From a virus: a DNA stretch of 20,066 nt. Positions 4,688-19,931 of the stretch are shown piece after piece. The notes under the pieces are model-generated. The model worked only from the letters and a program-made list of their open reading frames with translations. It was not told where the DNA came from and ran no database searches. The DNA is taken from positions 1 to 20,066 of IMG/VR virus record IMGVR_UViG_3300038701_000472. One strand, 5' to 3'. The first letter of the stretch is position 1, and the number at the start of each line of letters is the position of its first letter. A program made the position numbers and the translations under genes.

Positions 4688-4921
4688 TCATTGCCCGTTT
4701 TTATTTTTCCCACCGCACATCTGCATACGCAGTTTGGTTAAAGGCTCTACCCATTTTTTAGGTAGTTCTTGAGTGCCTTTTACCGCTTTACTCAATGTAG
4801 TATCAGGTATGCCTAATTCCTTCTCTATCGCTCGGAAGGATAGGCGTTCTTTGTTGGCGCGCAGCCAGTTGACTATTTCCATATCTGTTGTGTCGATTAT
4901 GTCAATAAGAAAATCACTCAT
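4688..4921 (-). CDS. Small HTH DNA-binding protein (77 aa)
   Basis: Residues about 27-60 form a Cro/XRE-style helix-turn-helix: LSFRAIEKELGI, the turn PDTT, then LSKAVKGTQELP. A third helix follows (WVEPLTKLRMQM). The tail is basic (GGKNKNGQ). It is the last gene of a three-gene minus-strand operon and overlaps the stop of the gene before it by 8 bases. A palindrome overlaps the operon promoter, and this protein is the obvious candidate to bind it. That link is inference from context only. Phage immunity or accessory-gene control would fit. Confidence 0.75.
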   Translation of the reverse strand: MSDFLIDIIDTTDMEIVNWLRANKERLSFRAIEKELGIPDTTLSKAVKGTQELPKKWVEPLTKLRMQMCGGKNKNGQ

Positions 4922-5120
4922 TTAACAAGTGCCTGTTACTGAAATCGAAGGGATCATAACCTTCATCAAGAATTAAATCAACAAGTTTTTTAGCTGATTT
5001 TTTTGTATTGCAATTCCAAAGATGCTTTCCATCTGGTGAAAAAACACCAAAATACTTTCGTGTCTTTGAATGCTCTACTGGCTCAATTAAATAAGCTCTA
5101 TATGTGATTTCTTCAAGCAT
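4914..5120 (-). CDS. Small protein of unknown function (68 aa)
   Basis: It starts one base inside the stop of the gene upstream and its own stop overlaps the HTH gene, so the three are co-translated. The sequence has a beta-rich N-terminal half (EEITYRAYLI, KYFGVFSPDGKHLWNC) and a helical C-terminal half (SAKKLVDLILDEGYDPFDF). This beta-then-helix pattern is reminiscent of small HicB/DUF-type folds, but no diagnostic motif is visible and I do not recognise a family. It may work with the HTH protein, for example as a toxin-antitoxin-like or regulator pair. That is speculation from gene order. Confidence 0.6.
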   Translation of the reverse strand: MLEEITYRAYLIEPVEHSKTRKYFGVFSPDGKHLWNCNTKKSAKKLVDLILDEGYDPFDFSNRHLLNE

Positions 5121-5362
5121 TAGTCAATGTATTTGCGTTCAACTGTTTCTGCCATTACTAATTTCCCTGTCTTTTTGGTAAAAGTTAAGTCGTTCAATAT
5201 CTGCTCGCCACCTCTTACTATCAAAACAGATACACCGAAGTGGTCTTTGATATTTTTAGGAGTAAATCCATTCATATAAACCTCTTTTGTAAAAGATGTT
5301 TGGTAGTAAGATTTAGCGTTTTTAAGTGCTTTTTCTGTTGGTTTGCTAAATGTTGTGTTCAT
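5120..5362 (-). CDS. First gene of the minus operon, unknown function (80 aa)
   Basis: An in-frame ATG also exists at 5386, but it falls inside the promoter, so translation should begin at the ATG at 5362 (MNTTFSKPTEKAL...). The protein has a basic helical N-terminus and then a segment NIKDHFGVSVLIVRGGEQIL. That segment could be a beta hairpin or a short HTH-like region. No membrane segment or known catalytic motif is seen. It shares the operon with a 68-aa protein and an HTH protein, with start-stop overlaps. The function is not recognised. Confidence 0.6.
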   Translation of the reverse strand: MNTTFSKPTEKALKNAKSYYQTSFTKEVYMNGFTPKNIKDHFGVSVLIVRGGEQILNDLTFTKKTGKLVMAETVERKYID

Positions 5363-5377
5363 CGTTTTCCGTTTTTG

Positions 5378-5399
5378 TTTATCCAAATGTACGGATAAA
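5378..5399. promoter_or_regulatory. Candidate operator overlapping the -7 box
   Basis: TTTATCC (5378-5384) and GGATAAA (5393-5399) are perfect 7-base complements with an 8-base spacer containing most of the -7 element. A dimeric repressor bound here would block RNA polymerase. The HTH protein at 4688-4921 in the same operon is the natural candidate, giving autoregulation; this is inferred. Confidence 0.5.
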
Positions 5400-5414
5400 A
5401 TCTAAACCTCCAAA
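5384..5414 (-). promoter_or_regulatory. Bacteroidota-type promoter of the three-gene minus operon
   Basis: Read on the minus strand, TTTG (5411-5414) and TACATTTG (5384-5391) are separated by 19 bases. This is an exact match to the Bacteroidota -33/-7 consensus TTTG-N19..20-TAnnTTTG. Transcription should start near 5377-5379, about 15 bases before the ATG at 5362. That decides the start codon of the first gene. Confidence 0.75.
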
Positions 5415-5471
5415 TGTTTTGATAAAAAAGTTCAAAAAAATATCCCTCCCTAAAAAATAAAAACTACTTCG

Positions 5472-5544
5472 GTTCTTCGTAGATGCGTAGGAGGTGCAAC
5501 GCATCATAGCCGTACCGTTAGGTGCAAGCGCAGCCAACGCACAC
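5472..5544. repeat. Composite palindromic spacer (left island)
   Basis: It contains GTTCTTCGTAGAT (5472-5484), identical to 4664-4676. It also contains GCAACGCATCATAGCCGTA (5496-5514), near-identical to 18699-18717, and GTTAGGTGC (5517-5525), the left arm of the inverted repeat enclosing the next gene. No coding sequence is needed to explain the stretch. Confidence 0.7.
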
Positions 5545-5758
5545 CTAAGACTTAAATATTGTGATTTCGGGATTTTTCCCACACATTTCATCTTTCATTT
5601 TATAACCTCTTTCTTTAATTAAAGCAGTTATCTCTTTAAGCAATTCCTCAGCTTCATTACAGCTATTAAACTGTTTCCCACCCATTTTTGGGTTAATCCA
5701 AATTGATAATTTAACATTAGTTATTTCCATTATTTTAAATATTGCGCCAGCACCTAAC
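5517..5758. repeat. Inverted repeat enclosing the 61-aa gene
   Basis: GTTAGGTGC (5517-5525) and GCACCTAAC (5750-5758) are perfect 9-base complements. Comparing 5517-5532 with the complement of 5743-5758 gives 14 matches of 16 (GTTAGGTGCnnGCGCA). The gene at 5545-5730 lies entirely within. The left arm also fits GTTRRRY, the core of integron attC sites. Confidence 0.65.
5545..5730 (-). CDS. Small acidic protein of unknown function (61 aa)
   Basis: The ATG at 5730 (MEITNVKLSIWI...) is preferred. The open frame extends to a GTG at 5760, but that extension runs through the right arm of the flanking inverted repeat. The protein begins with a strand-like segment (NVKLSIWINPKMGG) and continues with a helix (NEAEELLKEITALIKERGYK). 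It ends CGKNPEITIFKS, with Cys 51 its second cysteine. The stop TAG lies in a CACCTAA motif next to the spacer. The whole gene is a stand-alone unit bounded by GTTAGGTGC/GCACCTAAC. Family not recognised. Confidence 0.55.
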   Translation of the reverse strand: MEITNVKLSIWINPKMGGKQFNSCNEAEELLKEITALIKERGYKMKDEMCGKNPEITIFKS

Positions 5759-5830
5759 ACATAATATAAAAAATAGCTGCTGACTGGTTAATATTAAAGT
5801 ATTTACATTTATTCAAATTCATCTGTTTTC

Positions 5831-5861
5831 GAAAAGTAGTGCATATATTACGCTACTTTTC
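5831..5861. terminator. Strong hairpin downstream of the 167-aa minus gene
   Basis: GAAAAGTAG (5831-5839) pairs with CTACTTTTC (5853-5861), extended by T-G and G-C to 11 pairs, with a 9-base loop. It sits 17 bases past the stop codon of the minus gene ending at 5878. On the minus strand the second arm ends in TTTTC, so it is a plausible transcription terminator for that gene. Confidence 0.55.
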
Positions 5862-5877
5862 ATATTATCAACGTTGT

Positions 5878-6378
5878 CTAAATCTTACCGTACAGGTAAC
5901 TATCAGGGTGAACGCTTATAATACCTCCCAACTTCTTGTTGAGTATCGCGTAATCTCTTACAGATTGTTCACGCATTTCATCTTTGATATTTGGATGGTC
6001 ATTAAAGTCAACTCCCCAAAGTTTAATTTCAGTTGCTCCGTAAAAATGATACGCAACACCACAGGCAACAAAAGGTGAGTTGTTTGAAGACGGTATAAAC
6101 TCATTCCATCTATCATTGTGTGCTGCAATGTTTTTCAGTTTTATCTTCTGGACGCGCGGCAGATAGTTCCAATCGTCCAAATGAGTAAAGAACAAATCGA
6201 CCTTTAGTGATTCGATTGCCTTTAACCTTTCAGAATTGAAAACCGAAGGACGGTCAACGCAAACGTTACGACCACAACCATCAACATCATTAACGCCTAT
6301 TGTCAGGTTACCATCTGGTTTGAAGTGCTTTGCGCTTTCGCCTAATCCAATTACGTGAATTGTGTTCTTGTATTCCAT
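5878..6378 (-). CDS. Rossmann-like protein of unknown function (166 aa)
   Basis: The ATG at 6378 (MEYKNTIHVIGLGES...) is chosen over an in-frame ATG at 6423 because AAAAGGA precedes it at good spacing and the longer version begins in the divergent promoter region. The N-terminus is a strand-loop-helix with GLGES, then a second strand ending IGVNDVDGCG and VCVDRPSVF. This order resembles DUF115/GT42-like proteins that bind nucleotide sugars or pterins, and the later segment VACGVAYHFYGATEIKLWGVDF supports a Rossmann-like fold. No catalytic residue can be assigned with confidence. It is the only gene of its size on the minus strand amid virion genes, so it looks like an independently expressed accessory gene. 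Confidence 0.65.
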   Translation of the reverse strand: MEYKNTIHVIGLGESAKHFKPDGNLTIGVNDVDGCGRNVCVDRPSVFNSERLKAIESLKVDLFFTHLDDWNYLPRVQKIKLKNIAAHNDRWNEFIPSSNNSPFVACGVAYHFYGATEIKLWGVDFNDHPNIKDEMREQSVRDYAILNKKLGGIISVHPDSYLYGKI

Positions 6379-6414
6379 TACCGTCCTTTTCGTGTCGGTA
6401 AATATAGTAAACAA

Positions 6415-6434
6415 CGGTTGCAATTTTACAACCG
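6415..6434. promoter_or_regulatory. Inverted repeat abutting the protease start codon
   Basis: CGGTTG (6415-6420) and CAACCG (6429-6434) are perfect complements with an 8-base spacer, ending immediately before the ATG at 6435. It lies between divergent genes and could be an operator or a structure covering the start. No consensus promoter for the rightward operon is evident beside it. Confidence 0.35.
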
Positions 6435-17612: not shown

Positions 17613-17856
17613 TGTTGGCAAACATTTACAACCCGCTGTTTATCCTAAGTATCTCAAGCCGAAATTGAACCAAAGAAATATCAGACTTGCTATATTTTGT
17701 GTCTTTAAATTCAGTCAGTGGTTCATTATTATTGTTTCTATCTACAAGCCTCCACTTACCGTTTGAAGTGCTGTTTGCTACCCTTGGATAGTTTCTAAAT
17801 TTCCTTGGTTCTTTTAATTGTCCGTCAAGTATCATAATTAAAAACGTTTGCCAACA
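17613..17856. repeat. Inverted repeat enclosing the 69-aa gene
   Basis: TGTTGGCAAAC (17613-17623) and GTTTGCCAACA (17846-17856) are perfect 11-base complements. The gene at 17626-17835 lies wholly inside. On the plus strand the left arm starts (T)GTT and the right arm ends AAC(A), as in the other units. Confidence 0.7.
17626..17835 (-). CDS. Small basic protein of unknown function (69 aa)
   Basis: The ATG at 17835 (MILDGQLKEPRKFRNYPR...) is preferred over the longer open frame to 17901, because the longer version passes through the inverted repeat. The protein is polar and basic with NNNNEPLTEFKDTKYSKSDI and no clear hydrophobic segment. The stop lies 3 bases from the left inverted-repeat arm. 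No known family is recognised. It forms a stand-alone unit with its own private inverted repeat. Confidence 0.5.
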   Translation of the reverse strand: MILDGQLKEPRKFRNYPRVANSTSNGKWRLVDRNNNNEPLTEFKDTKYSKSDISLVQFRLEILRINSGL

Positions 17857-18168
17857 ATAAATAAAATGAATAGCGCAGGTTGGCGTTCTGCTTCTATTCA
17901 ATGTTTGTTCGTGCGCTACTGCATTTTATTAGGGCCGTTGTGCAAAATAAAATCAAAGGGGCGGGTACTCCTTGGAATGTTTCCCCGTTCCCTTTGCCGA
18001 ATACCAAGCGGAAGTTTAGCCGCTTCCAAGTTCTTTACCAAATGAGACAGGTCATTAATCTGTCTAAGCACATTCAATCGGCAAAGGCTGATATAACTTG
18101 GTGTCAGTTTTTTAGGCATCCAGTCAGCTTCTTTGATTTTACATTTCACAACATCAGATATAAAATAA
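17836..18168. other. Largely noncoding spacer between small genes
   Basis: The stretch contains the right arm of the 69-aa gene's repeat (17846-17856) and GCGCAGGTTGGCG, which with the arm makes GTTGGC/GCCAAC pairs. It also holds GGGCCGTTGTGCAAAATAAA (17933-17952), a spacer-like segment whose GTTGTGCAA complements 19173-19181. An open frame, 17916-18119 minus, crosses most of it but is doubtful. Otherwise I see nothing in it. Confidence 0.5.
17916..18119 (-). CDS. Doubtful small ORF (67 aa), possibly spacer-derived
   Basis: The ATG at 18119 begins MPKKLTPSYISLCRLNVLRQINDLSHLVKNLEAAKLPLG... and is basic and Leu-rich. It lies in the right direction after the Cys-rich gene (18169-18420). A longer frame extending back to 18326 overlaps that gene in another frame and is not credible there. 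The C-terminal residues (FDFILHNGPNKMQ) translate a spacer segment that contains the GTTGTGCAA motif, which weakens the case. No family recognised; it may be a degenerate gene. Confidence 0.25.
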   Translation of the reverse strand: MPKKLTPSYISLCRLNVLRQINDLSHLVKNLEAAKLPLGIRQRERGNIPRSTRPFDFILHNGPNKMQ

Positions 18169-18432: not shown

Positions 18433-18457
18433 CATATCTGTACCCGTTAGCGGTAAT
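18433..18457. repeat. Spacer repeat copy 1
   Basis: 18433-18457 and 19506-19530 share 22 of 25 bases: both begin CATATCTGTA, then one differing base, CCGTTAG, two swapped bases (CG versus GC), and GTAAT. Each copy is directly downstream of a minus-strand gene's stop codon. Confidence 0.75.
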
Positions 18458-18603
18458 TATAAAAGAACGATAACACCTCTATTTAATTCGCCTTTGCTTC
18501 CATCAGGATAAGCAATTGTGTGTACTGTTTTTGATTTTTTGCTCATATACTCAAGATATTCAATTTCAGTTAGTGGTTTACTGTCAGAATAACTACCGCT
18601 AAC
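18446..18603. repeat. Inverted repeat unit C (gene tail unit)
   Basis: GTTAGCGGTA (18446-18455) and TACCGCTAAC (18594-18603) are perfect 10-base complements. The left arm lies immediately beyond the stop codon of the minus gene ending at 18457. The right arm is inside that gene, where GTT-AGC-GGT encodes V21-S22-G23. The 158-base unit therefore spans only the C-terminal two thirds of the gene. Confidence 0.7.
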
Positions 18604-18663
18604 ATCGGCTATAAAATCATTACCGTTTTCGTGCTTATCCAAAGTTTTGTTCTCTTTACTCAT
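18457..18663 (-). CDS. Small acidic protein of unknown function (68 aa)
   Basis: The ATG at 18663 (MSKENKTLDKHENGND...) is used. The open frame continues upstream through a spacer repeat (translated NAYGYEALP), which is not credible coding sequence. The N-terminal 20 residues are charged. Residues 21-68 begin V-S-G-S, encoded by an inverted-repeat arm, and continue YSDSKPLTEIEYLEYMSKKSKTVHTIAYPDGSKGELNRGVIVLL. No known family. The shared entry point with two neighbours suggests a modular C-terminus. Confidence 0.55.
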   Translation of the reverse strand: MSKENKTLDKHENGNDFIADVSGSYSDSKPLTEIEYLEYMSKKSKTVHTIAYPDGSKGELNRGVIVLL

Positions 18664-18698
18664 TTTGTTTTTATTTGAAAGTTTAAGCGTATTTATCG

Positions 18699-18724
18699 GC
18701 AACGCTTCATAGCCGTAGGCGTTA
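18699..18724. repeat. Spacer repeat related to 5496-5520
   Basis: GCAACGCTTCATAGCCGTA (18699-18717) matches GCAACGCATCATAGCCGTA (5496-5514) with one difference, and both continue to GTTA after 2-3 bases. AACGC (18701-18705) and GCGTT (18719-18723) are complementary. It holds the stop codon of the upstream minus gene and lies just before the start of the next. Confidence 0.75.
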
Positions 18725-18829
18725 TCGGTAATTTTCTTCATCGAAAGTTCCGTAACCTTTTGCAAGTGCATCTCTTACACCATCTTTATATGCTTGTTCA
18801 AGTTTATCAGAAGAAAACATACCGCTAAC
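18721..18829. repeat. Inverted repeat unit B (gene tail unit)
   Basis: GTTATCGGTA (18721-18730) and TACCGCTAAC (18820-18829) are complements with one mismatch (9 of 10). The left arm contains the stop codon of the gene; the right arm encodes V32-S33-G34. The right arm is identical to that of unit C. Confidence 0.6.
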
Positions 18830-18922
18830 ACCAAATAAATCCAATACTTGCTTTGATGCTAAATTATACTTTATTTCTCCTTTACTTAACCTGTACATTA
18901 TTTGTAATATCTCGTTTTTCAT
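18722..18922 (-). CDS. Small protein with modular C-terminus (66 aa)
   Basis: MKNEILQIMYRLSKGEIKYNLASKQVLDLFG, then V-S-G-M at 32-35 encoded by the inverted-repeat arm, then a charged helical tail ending in ENYR. The N-terminal half is compact and helical (LSKGEI...ASKQVLDLFGVS), a pattern I have seen at the start of several small phage proteins in Bacteroidota. The stop TAA is within the spacer-repeat arm. No enzyme motif. Function unknown. Confidence 0.55.
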   Translation of the reverse strand: MKNEILQIMYRLSKGEIKYNLASKQVLDLFGVSGMFSSDKLEQAYKDGVRDALAKGYGTFDEENYR

Positions 18923-18947
18923 ATCGTACTGTATTTATTTGTGAACC

Positions 18948-19181
18948 GTTGTGGAACATAGCTACACATTACCCTTGTAAAAATTAGTCGTTGCGTAAGG
19001 TTTTATTTTACCCGCATCATTTCTTACTGCAATGTAACCACCTGTCGAAATCCACTCAACCCAATAATCTTTGTTGTGAGTTAAATACTTTGTTTTTGGC
19101 TGAAAAGCCTTAATCTTATCGTGTTTTCTATATCCCATATTTTCAAATTTTGTAGTTAATAAACCGCTAAGATTGCACAAC
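18948..19181. repeat. Weaker inverted repeat around the 58-aa gene
   Basis: GTTGTGGAA (18948-18956) and TTGCACAAC (19173-19181) are complements with one mismatch. The same right arm is a perfect complement of GTTGTGCAA at 17937-17945, so two nested pairings are possible. Confidence 0.4.
18962..19138 (-). CDS. Small protein of unknown function (58 aa)
   Basis: The ATG at 19138 (MGYRKHDKIKAFQPKTKYL...) is used. The open frame extends further upstream through spacer sequence containing GCACAAC. The protein has a basic start and a beta-like centre (DYWVEWISTGGYIAVRNDAGKIKPYATTNF), which could be an SH3-like small barrel. No motif to name a family. It is enclosed by a 9-base inverted repeat with one mismatch. 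Confidence 0.5.
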   Translation of the reverse strand: MGYRKHDKIKAFQPKTKYLTHNKDYWVEWISTGGYIAVRNDAGKIKPYATTNFYKGNV

Positions 19182-19216
19182 AATACCTAAAAAGCATACC
19201 CTACGGGATACGCATT

Positions 19217-19423
19217 TTAGCCCTCCCACCGTTCTAAATAAACAACCTCTTTATATCTTTGCTGTTTCCACTGCCTTATATTTCTCTTACAAGTTTCTAA
19301 AACTTCTTTTGCTTCTTCGTATGTAAATTCACTTTTTTGAATAACTCCGTTCACAAATACCTTAAACCAAACCCTGCCATTAGGCTCAATTTCCTTTACA
19401 ATTTTAAATTCATGTTCTTGCAT
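19217..19423 (-). CDS. Small protein of unknown function (68 aa)
   Basis: The ATG at 19423 (MQEHEFKIVKEIEPNGRVW...) is chosen; an in-frame ATG at 19501 lies in spacer. A beta hairpin (EFKIVKEIEPNGRVWFKVFVNG) is followed by a helix (TYEEAKEVLETCKRNIRQWKQQ) and a charged end. This beta-then-helix layout is common in small phage proteins but not diagnostic. ATACGCA (19208-19214) and TGCGTAT (19483-19489), complementary 7-mers, flank the gene. Confidence 0.5.
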   Translation of the reverse strand: MQEHEFKIVKEIEPNGRVWFKVFVNGVIQKSEFTYEEAKEVLETCKRNIRQWKQQRYKEVVYLERWEG

Positions 19424-19505
19424 AATTTTACTTTTTGCCCACGCTCGCAAACGTGGAGGTTTGTAACTCGTATTTAGTGTAGTGCGTATGTGAGGGCGCA
19501 CTTCC

Positions 19506-19530
19506 CATATCTGTAACCGTTAGGCGTAAT
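19506..19530. repeat. Spacer repeat copy 2
   Basis: Pairs with 18433-18457 at 22 of 25 bases, differing at one base and at the CG/GC swap. It sits directly beyond the stop of the 104-aa minus gene. Read on the minus strand it continues into AGTGCG (19493-19498) and CGCACT (19481-19486 region), a further hairpin. Confidence 0.7.
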
Positions 19531-19690
19531 GTTATTTGAACGCCTTGTACATTTTTGCGGTTAATTCTCTTGCTCTTTTTAAGGTAATGAAGTCTAACGA
19601 ATAGCCGTGTGCATCTAATAGCAAATCGTGTAATGCTTCAATCGTTGCAATATCACTATCTACTATATTAACAGAAACACTACGCCTAAC
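19519..19690. repeat. Inverted repeat unit D (gene tail unit)
   Basis: GTTAGGCGTA (19519-19528) and TACGCCTAAC (19681-19690) are perfect 10-base complements. Compared with unit C, both arms carry the same CG-to-GC swap. The right arm encodes V53-R54-R55 in the 104-aa gene. The left arm fits GTTRRRY and lies 3 bases past the stop codon. Confidence 0.75.
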
Positions 19691-19846
19691 ATCGGCTAAA
19701 TCAACAGATTTAACTTGCTGCCTGTGGTAGTATTTAGCGTAGTCGGTCATCAACTTGCCTATCAGTTCAAACTTATTCCTGTCAATTGGAAAATCAATGC
19801 CATCATAAAGGTCATCAATGTATTCCTGTGGTGTTATTAGTTTCAT
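19532..19846 (-). CDS. Small protein with two-part structure (104 aa)
   Basis: The first 46 residues (MKLITPQEYIDDLYDGIDFPIDRNKFELIGKLMTDYAKYYHRQQ) form a helical segment of a kind seen at the start of small phage-associated proteins. At residue 53 the frame enters the inverted-repeat arm (V-R-R-S), and the remaining 52 residues (VNIVDSDIATIEALHDLLLDAHGYSLDF...) are a different helical module with no obvious relation. The codon phase at the arm is the same as in the two other modular genes. Function unknown. The first gene leftward from the terminase promoter region. Confidence 0.55.
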   Translation of the reverse strand: MKLITPQEYIDDLYDGIDFPIDRNKFELIGKLMTDYAKYYHRQQVKSVDLADVRRSVSVNIVDSDIATIEALHDLLLDAHGYSLDFITLKRARELTAKMYKAFK

Positions 19847-19931
19847 CTTATAGTTATTTACCCGTTAAATCCGATTGTTTAGCAGTAACCGTTGGGGCAA
19901 ATTGCCTTCGGTCGAACAAACATAAAACATT

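Follow-up and report, generated by a model that had tools for sequence, protein, structure and literature searches.

Inverted repeats at small genes of a putative Bacteroidota phage as probable R' and R'' boxes of integron-type cassettes with a translated attC-like core

Clusters of attC sites (CALINs) have been described in phages, including Polaribacter phage P12002L, by Qi et al. 2023 (PMC9892861), who noted divergent attC directions and methyltransferase cargo and reported that one P12002L attC recombined with IntI1. Integron integrases are recognised by an additional domain, said to be necessary for IntI activity (PMC2426708). In Bacteroidetes, IntegronFinder 2.0 retrieved only integrase-only elements and one complete integron (Salinibacter). 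The Polaribacter phage Freya isolates, to which we return below, were described in a paper that gives their size range and infers a temperate life style from the integrase; neither "integron" nor "cassette" occurs in its text.

The locus analysed here lies in a stretch of 20,066 nucleotides of viral DNA (IMG/VR record IMGVR_UViG_3300038701_000472, positions 1 to 20,066; hereafter the window), putatively from a phage of Bacteroidota, the host being assigned from its named relatives. A first-pass annotation of the window had pointed to private pairs of inverted 10-mers at two small genes, C and D. Very probably, these repeats are the R' and R'' boxes of integron-type gene cassettes whose attC-like core is translated and which, in related phages, are linked to a recombinase. 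On this reading the units of the window comprise the following parts, with the basis of each in brackets.

19891..19900, minus strand: left boundary of cassette D, the R''-type end of the preceding unit, TTGCCCCAAC (sequence)
19691..19890, minus strand: attC-like core ("header") of cassette D, 200 nt, ending in the L' box ..TTTAGCCGAT (fold, frame)
19677..19690, minus strand: 5' arm (R' box) of cassette D, GTTAGGCGTAGTGT, within the reading frame (sequence)
19532..19846, minus strand: gene D, small protein of 104 aa (reading frame)
19519..19532, minus strand: 3' arm (R'' box) of cassette D, ACATTACGCCTAAC, the unit ending in AAC (sequence)
18721..18829, minus strand: decayed unit, GTTAGCGGTA .. 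TACCGATAAC, in the gene 18922-18722 (9/10 paired, outer pairing lost)
18604..18720, minus strand: attC-like core of cassette C, 117 nt, with L'' GCCTACGGCTATG and L' ATAGCCGAT (fold)
18590..18603, minus strand: 5' arm (R' box) of cassette C, GTTAGCGGTAGTTA, within the reading frame (sequence)
18457..18663, minus strand: gene C, 68 aa from ATG 18663, the upstream ATG 18771 being also in frame
18446..18459, minus strand: 3' arm (R'' box) of cassette C, TAATTACCGCTAAC (sequence)
17614..17855, minus strand: third unit, arms GTTGGCAAACGTTT/AAATGTTTGCCAAC (signature search)
5517..5758, minus strand: fourth unit, arms GTTAGGTGCTGGCG/CGCTTGCACCTAAC, core 5759-5872, 114 nt (signature search)

The four 10-mers of units C and D are present exactly at 18446-18455 and 18594-18603, and at 19519-19528 and 19681-19690, and their pairing holds; the real extent is about 14 nt per unit, with a G opposite a T at position 11. 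Their placement at the ends of consecutive small genes has to be amended, as the genes are on the minus strand, with the 5' arm within the reading frame (..FIAD|VSGS.. in gene C, ..DLAD|VRRS.. in gene D) and the 3' arm just past the stop codon, and as C and D are separated by other small genes and by the decayed unit. The view that chance pairing is unlikely holds for arm pairs of the form GTT..AAC, which exceed dinucleotide shuffles of the window: exact 10-mer inverted repeats of this class number 2 at a spacing of 100-220 nt (0.08 expected, maximum 1 in 300 shuffles) and 6 at a spacing of 100-1100 nt (0.63 expected). The class matters, since without the GTT..AAC restriction the inverted repeats of the window are at chance level (39 versus 29 in shuffles). 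A search with the whole signature, 14-nt arms with G.T at position 11, retrieved four units from the window; shuffles yielded none. In the third of them the gene start (ATG 17835) is inside the unit, so that its attC-like site (17856-17906, a hairpin of 51 nt) is untranslated. A second minus-strand block of small genes stands among structural genes at 4688-6423 and holds one signature unit (5758-5517), which continues into GGTACGGCTATG, an L''-like start. Pfam and PHROG searches with the small proteins of the window, including that of gene D, gave nothing significant.

More than 100 related loci were gathered by pattern scans of viral contigs, which are fragments, several of the loci being duplicates. 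In Cellulophaga phage phi17:1, a stretch 90.6% identical to the 126 nt between gene start and arm of cassette C runs into an unrelated gene body with a private arm pair of its own. The C-terminal part of gene D recurs behind other headers in the loci L004-L008, and the gene D body of other phages has different N-termini and arms that are altered yet still paired (GTTAGGCGTA/TACGCCTAAC in the window and L005, GTTGTGCGTA/TACGCACAAC in L006). Covariation across related loci was the check proposed with the first-pass annotation, and 66 of the 129 distinct units match their own partner exactly, compared with a permuted mean of 2.2. Because covariation of units selected for pairing is circular, permuted-tail counts and a set defined by an attI-like site, described below, were chosen as tests. 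From 27,157 in-frame GTT sites in the related loci, 154 units with at least nine of ten pairs were obtained, versus 23-42 with permuted tails. When tails were defined solely by the attI-like site, 18 of 24 found their own 5' arm upstream (2.25 in permutations), and some of the six misses look like a misplaced YAAC. Some units are weak; a stricter set of 160 units displays 95 different arm sequences. The proposal that the two ends are selected or generated as a pair is thus borne out, the arms covarying across many units and bounding precise mobile units.

At position 11, G stands opposite T in 82 of the 129 distinct units, and a conserved G opposite T also occupies two positions of the L stem in most cores. 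This G.T of the gene-sense strand, which is A.C in the other, could mark the strand for the recombinase. A methyltransferase unit of phage type was also retrieved from a MAG contig labelled Mollicutes (L148), which is probably a misbinned phage contig.

The cores themselves fold. For 17 cores lying between independently found units, end pairing is 10.1, versus 6.2 when permuted and 5.3 when letter-shuffled. Among 40 cores, the length is mostly 112-121 nt where the 3' half is translated and about 38-51, 64-82 or 116-121 nt in untranslated cores; both kinds have stems that beat shuffles (mean fold z of -2.6 and -3.7, respectively), and the gene-sense strand is the more stable one in 37 of the 40. 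The lengths group around 40, 80 and 117-120 nt, as though separated by a step of some 40 nt. The arms are the same in units whose core is untranslated. In C and D, a single long hairpin results when the core is closed by the arms of its own cassette. The core of D, which folds with the arms into a long stem, contributes the start codon (ATG 19846-19844) and, in frame with gene D, its first 52 codons, and the core loop of C holds the start codon (ATG 18663-18661) and the N-terminus MSKENKTLDKHENGNDFIAD. As the stem boxes are in the reading frame, the peptide motif [HF]IAD-VxxS represents the L' and R' boxes read as protein. Like attC sites, these units combine R'' and R' boxes complementary within each cassette, an L''/L' stem and otherwise free sequence. 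The initial suggestion of recombination sites or a folded structure proved right on both sides, the arms being at once exact unit boundaries and the base of a conserved hairpin; what had been missed is the position of the 5' arm inside the gene, the start codon in the hairpin and the integron-like system.

The extent of the mobile unit is given by 12 methyltransferase units that have a common header and body and wholly different flanks before the header's YAAC and after their own YAAC. Since header and body are shared between YAAC joints, the unit is made of core, body and R'' arm. The canonical polarity of a gene with its downstream attC was considered and rejected. Of 100 pairs of homologous bodies, 77 have the upstream core in common, a count partly biased by the retrieval of the loci with the upstream motif, and one, a self-match, the downstream core. 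The unit ends contradict the canonical polarity as well, and in view of this bias the polarity argument rests on the boundaries and on the Freya isolates. When the methyltransferase body was used for an unbiased search, 8 of the 80 loci had arms (control 0-1); five different N-termini were represented, and one version was untranslated. Exchange between header and body at GTT has occurred too, as 14 GNDFIAD headers, of the family of the cassette C header, are joined at GTT to 14 different bodies. This exchange is not accounted for by a single crossover site, and we attribute it to a second, rarer crossover or to homologous recombination within headers.

The Freya isolates (Freya_1 to Freya_10, MT732463-MT732472), obtained on one host, have circular genomes of 43,978-48,920 bp. 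Upstream of the integrase, the seven isolates compared (Freya_1, 2, 5, 6, 8, 9 and 10) are identical apart from cassette blocks. Inserts of 842 nt (from Freya_1 to 2), 902 nt (2 to 5), 472 nt (5 to 6) and 307 nt (9 to 10) all lie at YAAC|ACCCCTATAAC, 47 nt before the integrase start, and Freya_8 and Freya_10 differ by an exact internal block of 902 nt. Each block starts after YAAC and ends in YAAC, with unrelated sequence joined there, and the blocks account for the entire differences in genome length. Translated cores are present in the 307-nt block and in the first unit of the 842-nt block. The Danklef isolates, of 47.2-48.2 kb in the same paper, may show similar cassette differences.

A recombinase is a recurrent neighbour of such arrays in the relatives. 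Among 35 cassette-bearing phage records tested, four encode a PF00589 protein and 31 no recombinase; three of the four proteins (263-270 aa) are encoded 0.4-1.2 kb from the units, and no other signature units occur in these genomes of 46, 90 and 126 kb. A search with an alignment of these three yielded 43 loci. Upstream sequence of about 700 nt or more is available for 27 family loci, several of them near-duplicates, and all 27 carry one to seven units directly upstream and on the same strand, versus none of nine distant control recombinases and none in shuffles. The last YAAC is at a near-constant distance of about 52 nt before the recombinase start codon and is followed by a conserved site, AAC|TAnnATATnT. 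Three loci (L301, L302 and L304) have this site and the recombinase in common and unrelated cassettes joined exactly at AAC. The relatives thus display, as integrons do, cassettes at an attI-like site beside an integrase gene; in the window, a 20-kb fragment with four units, no recombinase was seen. In phi17:1 (L001), the sequence after the unit, CTAACTACCATATATAAAACC (2431-2380, minus strand), resembles the attI-like site, and no tyrosine recombinase was detected in that phage.

All 22 aligned phage recombinases match Xer and integron-integrase models, below the cut-offs; with TIGR02249, three members reach 124-162 bits, below the cut-off of 265. Relative to IntI4, the phage recombinase lacks about 48 residues, located between positions 175 and 259. 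They correspond to the region of the additional domain that defines IntI, which places the phage enzymes outside the IntI family. The predicted structure of the recombinase (pLDDT 88) resembles XerA (Z 21.0) and VchIntIA (Z 20.6) about equally.

These observations suggest the following mechanism. A cassette consists of the attC-like core, the gene body and the R'' arm, with YAAC bounding both sides. In the free circle its two arms would meet around its own core and form one complete attC-like hairpin, which would account for the pairing of arms within a unit but not between neighbours. Placed 5' in the gene, the core would be translated and provide the start codon and the N-terminus, with the L' and R' boxes read in the same frame (..IAD|VxxS..). 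In the relatives, where a tyrosine recombinase gene closes the array at its 3' end, cassettes enter about 50 nt before the recombinase start codon. That the phage recombinase catalyses the exchange is suggested by its adjacency and strengthened, though unproved, by the Freya isolates. The folded gene-sense strand may be the substrate, to which the strand asymmetry of folding points indirectly, and the phage of the window presumably uses the same recombinase or an enzyme acting in trans. We consider it likely that Bacteroidota phages harbour a distinct and so far overlooked class of integron, with an Xer-like integrase devoid of the IntI domain, reversed genes, a translated attC and native N-terminus shuffling at the GTT joint, and that it is active in isolated phages.

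Related recombinases are also found in potential hosts: 101 of 395 Bacteroidota genomes carry one close to the phage family, often longer at its N-terminus, and 10 of the best 20 host recombinases have signature units alongside. Nine chromosomal integron-like arrays of Bacteroidota (L341, L345, L347, L355, L356, L358, L361, L364 and L367) adjoin a long Xer-like recombinase that lacks the IntI insert, have the canonical gene orientation and apparently fall outside current integron surveys. The cargo of the host arrays (nucleotidyltransferases, a beta-lactamase-fold protein, hydrolases) is typical of integrons. Similar arrays with the same hairpin type in Bacteroidota chromosomes would also be expected if the phage units were an ordinary integrase-less attC cluster (CALIN) derived from host integrons, with cassettes moved by host enzymes alone and an incidental translation of attC. 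The recombinase-free window and the 31 of 35 related records in the same situation agree with this explanation, as does the capacity of phage attC sites, including the one from P12002L, to recombine with IntI1 (PMC9892861). We nevertheless hold it to be unlikely, since the phage arrays possess their own recombinase family and attI-like site, and since their genes are oriented opposite to those of host arrays (sense:antisense 44:4 in phages versus 1:13 in host arrays, Fisher p = 4e-9). The antisense orientation of the host arrays is the usual one of integrons, and in the phage cassettes the attC-like site is not at the 3' end of the gene. Moreover, the translated header type has 115 matches in viral contigs, whereas a header motif scan of 85,000 genomes gave 14, approximately the chance number, so that this type is rare there or missing altogether.

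An RNA element, in which the stop-codon region would pair with the start region in the mRNA and control translation, would be in line with the better pairing of the gene-sense strand and with the possible G.U at the conserved G.T positions. It appears very improbable given that the arms double as exact breakpoints of DNA units, in the Freya indels and the methyltransferase units, that the pairing distance reaches 800 nt and that the same arms are carried by units with untranslated cores; an Rfam search of the region returned only a chance-level match, none being above the gathering score. Still less probable is a chance pairing combined with homologous recombination between common headers, whose identity between phages, up to 91%, could permit recombination: chance is excluded by the shuffles, the permuted tails and the attI-defined set, and at YAAC the Freya inserts abut unrelated sequence. 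A transposon or MITE with terminal inverted repeats, although it would also be a discrete unit between inverted ends, is scarcely credible, as the ends are not conserved between copies (95 different arms), the YAAC joints need no target duplication and the moving unit takes in the core, outside the arms.

Under the integron-type reading, phages have an integrase-linked gene-collecting device of their own, whose cargo includes DNA methyltransferases and a restriction-alleviation protein. The cassettes explain part of the accessory variation among sister phages, which was left unexplained at their original description. The arrays found next to similar recombinases in Bacteroidota chromosomes point to a reservoir which present integron finders may overlook. 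Structure-based cassette recombination would here be separated from the IntI-specific domain, which makes the purpose of this domain directly testable.

Among known systems, the phage recombinases resemble the Xer-type enzymes (XerA, XerH, XerC/D) by their matches to Xer models and their XerA-like predicted fold, and differ from them in being linked to cassette arrays instead of a dif site. The arm signature recurs in units of phage P12002L, which also has a hairpin with these L boxes; compared with the phage CALINs of PMC9892861, the present system adds its own integrase, the translated attC and the cassette exchange between isolates, which are unreported there. Within the open-licence literature, preprints not included, we found no description of a translated attC, of reversed cassettes or of this phage recombinase, and a natural attC doubling as coding sequence is, as far as these searches show, undescribed. 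The likeness to class 1 and chromosomal integrons is the closest: R''/R' ends that pair within each cassette, an L''/L' stem with a variable loop, a crossover at the YAAC/GTT joint, tolerance of any arm sequence provided that it is paired, and an array adjoining a tyrosine recombinase with an attI site, the newest cassette being nearest to attI (Freya). Conversely, the phage system departs from integrons by a recombinase without the IntI additional domain, by its carriage on phages, by a gene reversed relative to attC, so that attC is at the 5' end of the gene and is often translated, supplying the start codon, and by arms that pair over about 14 nt with a conserved G.T.
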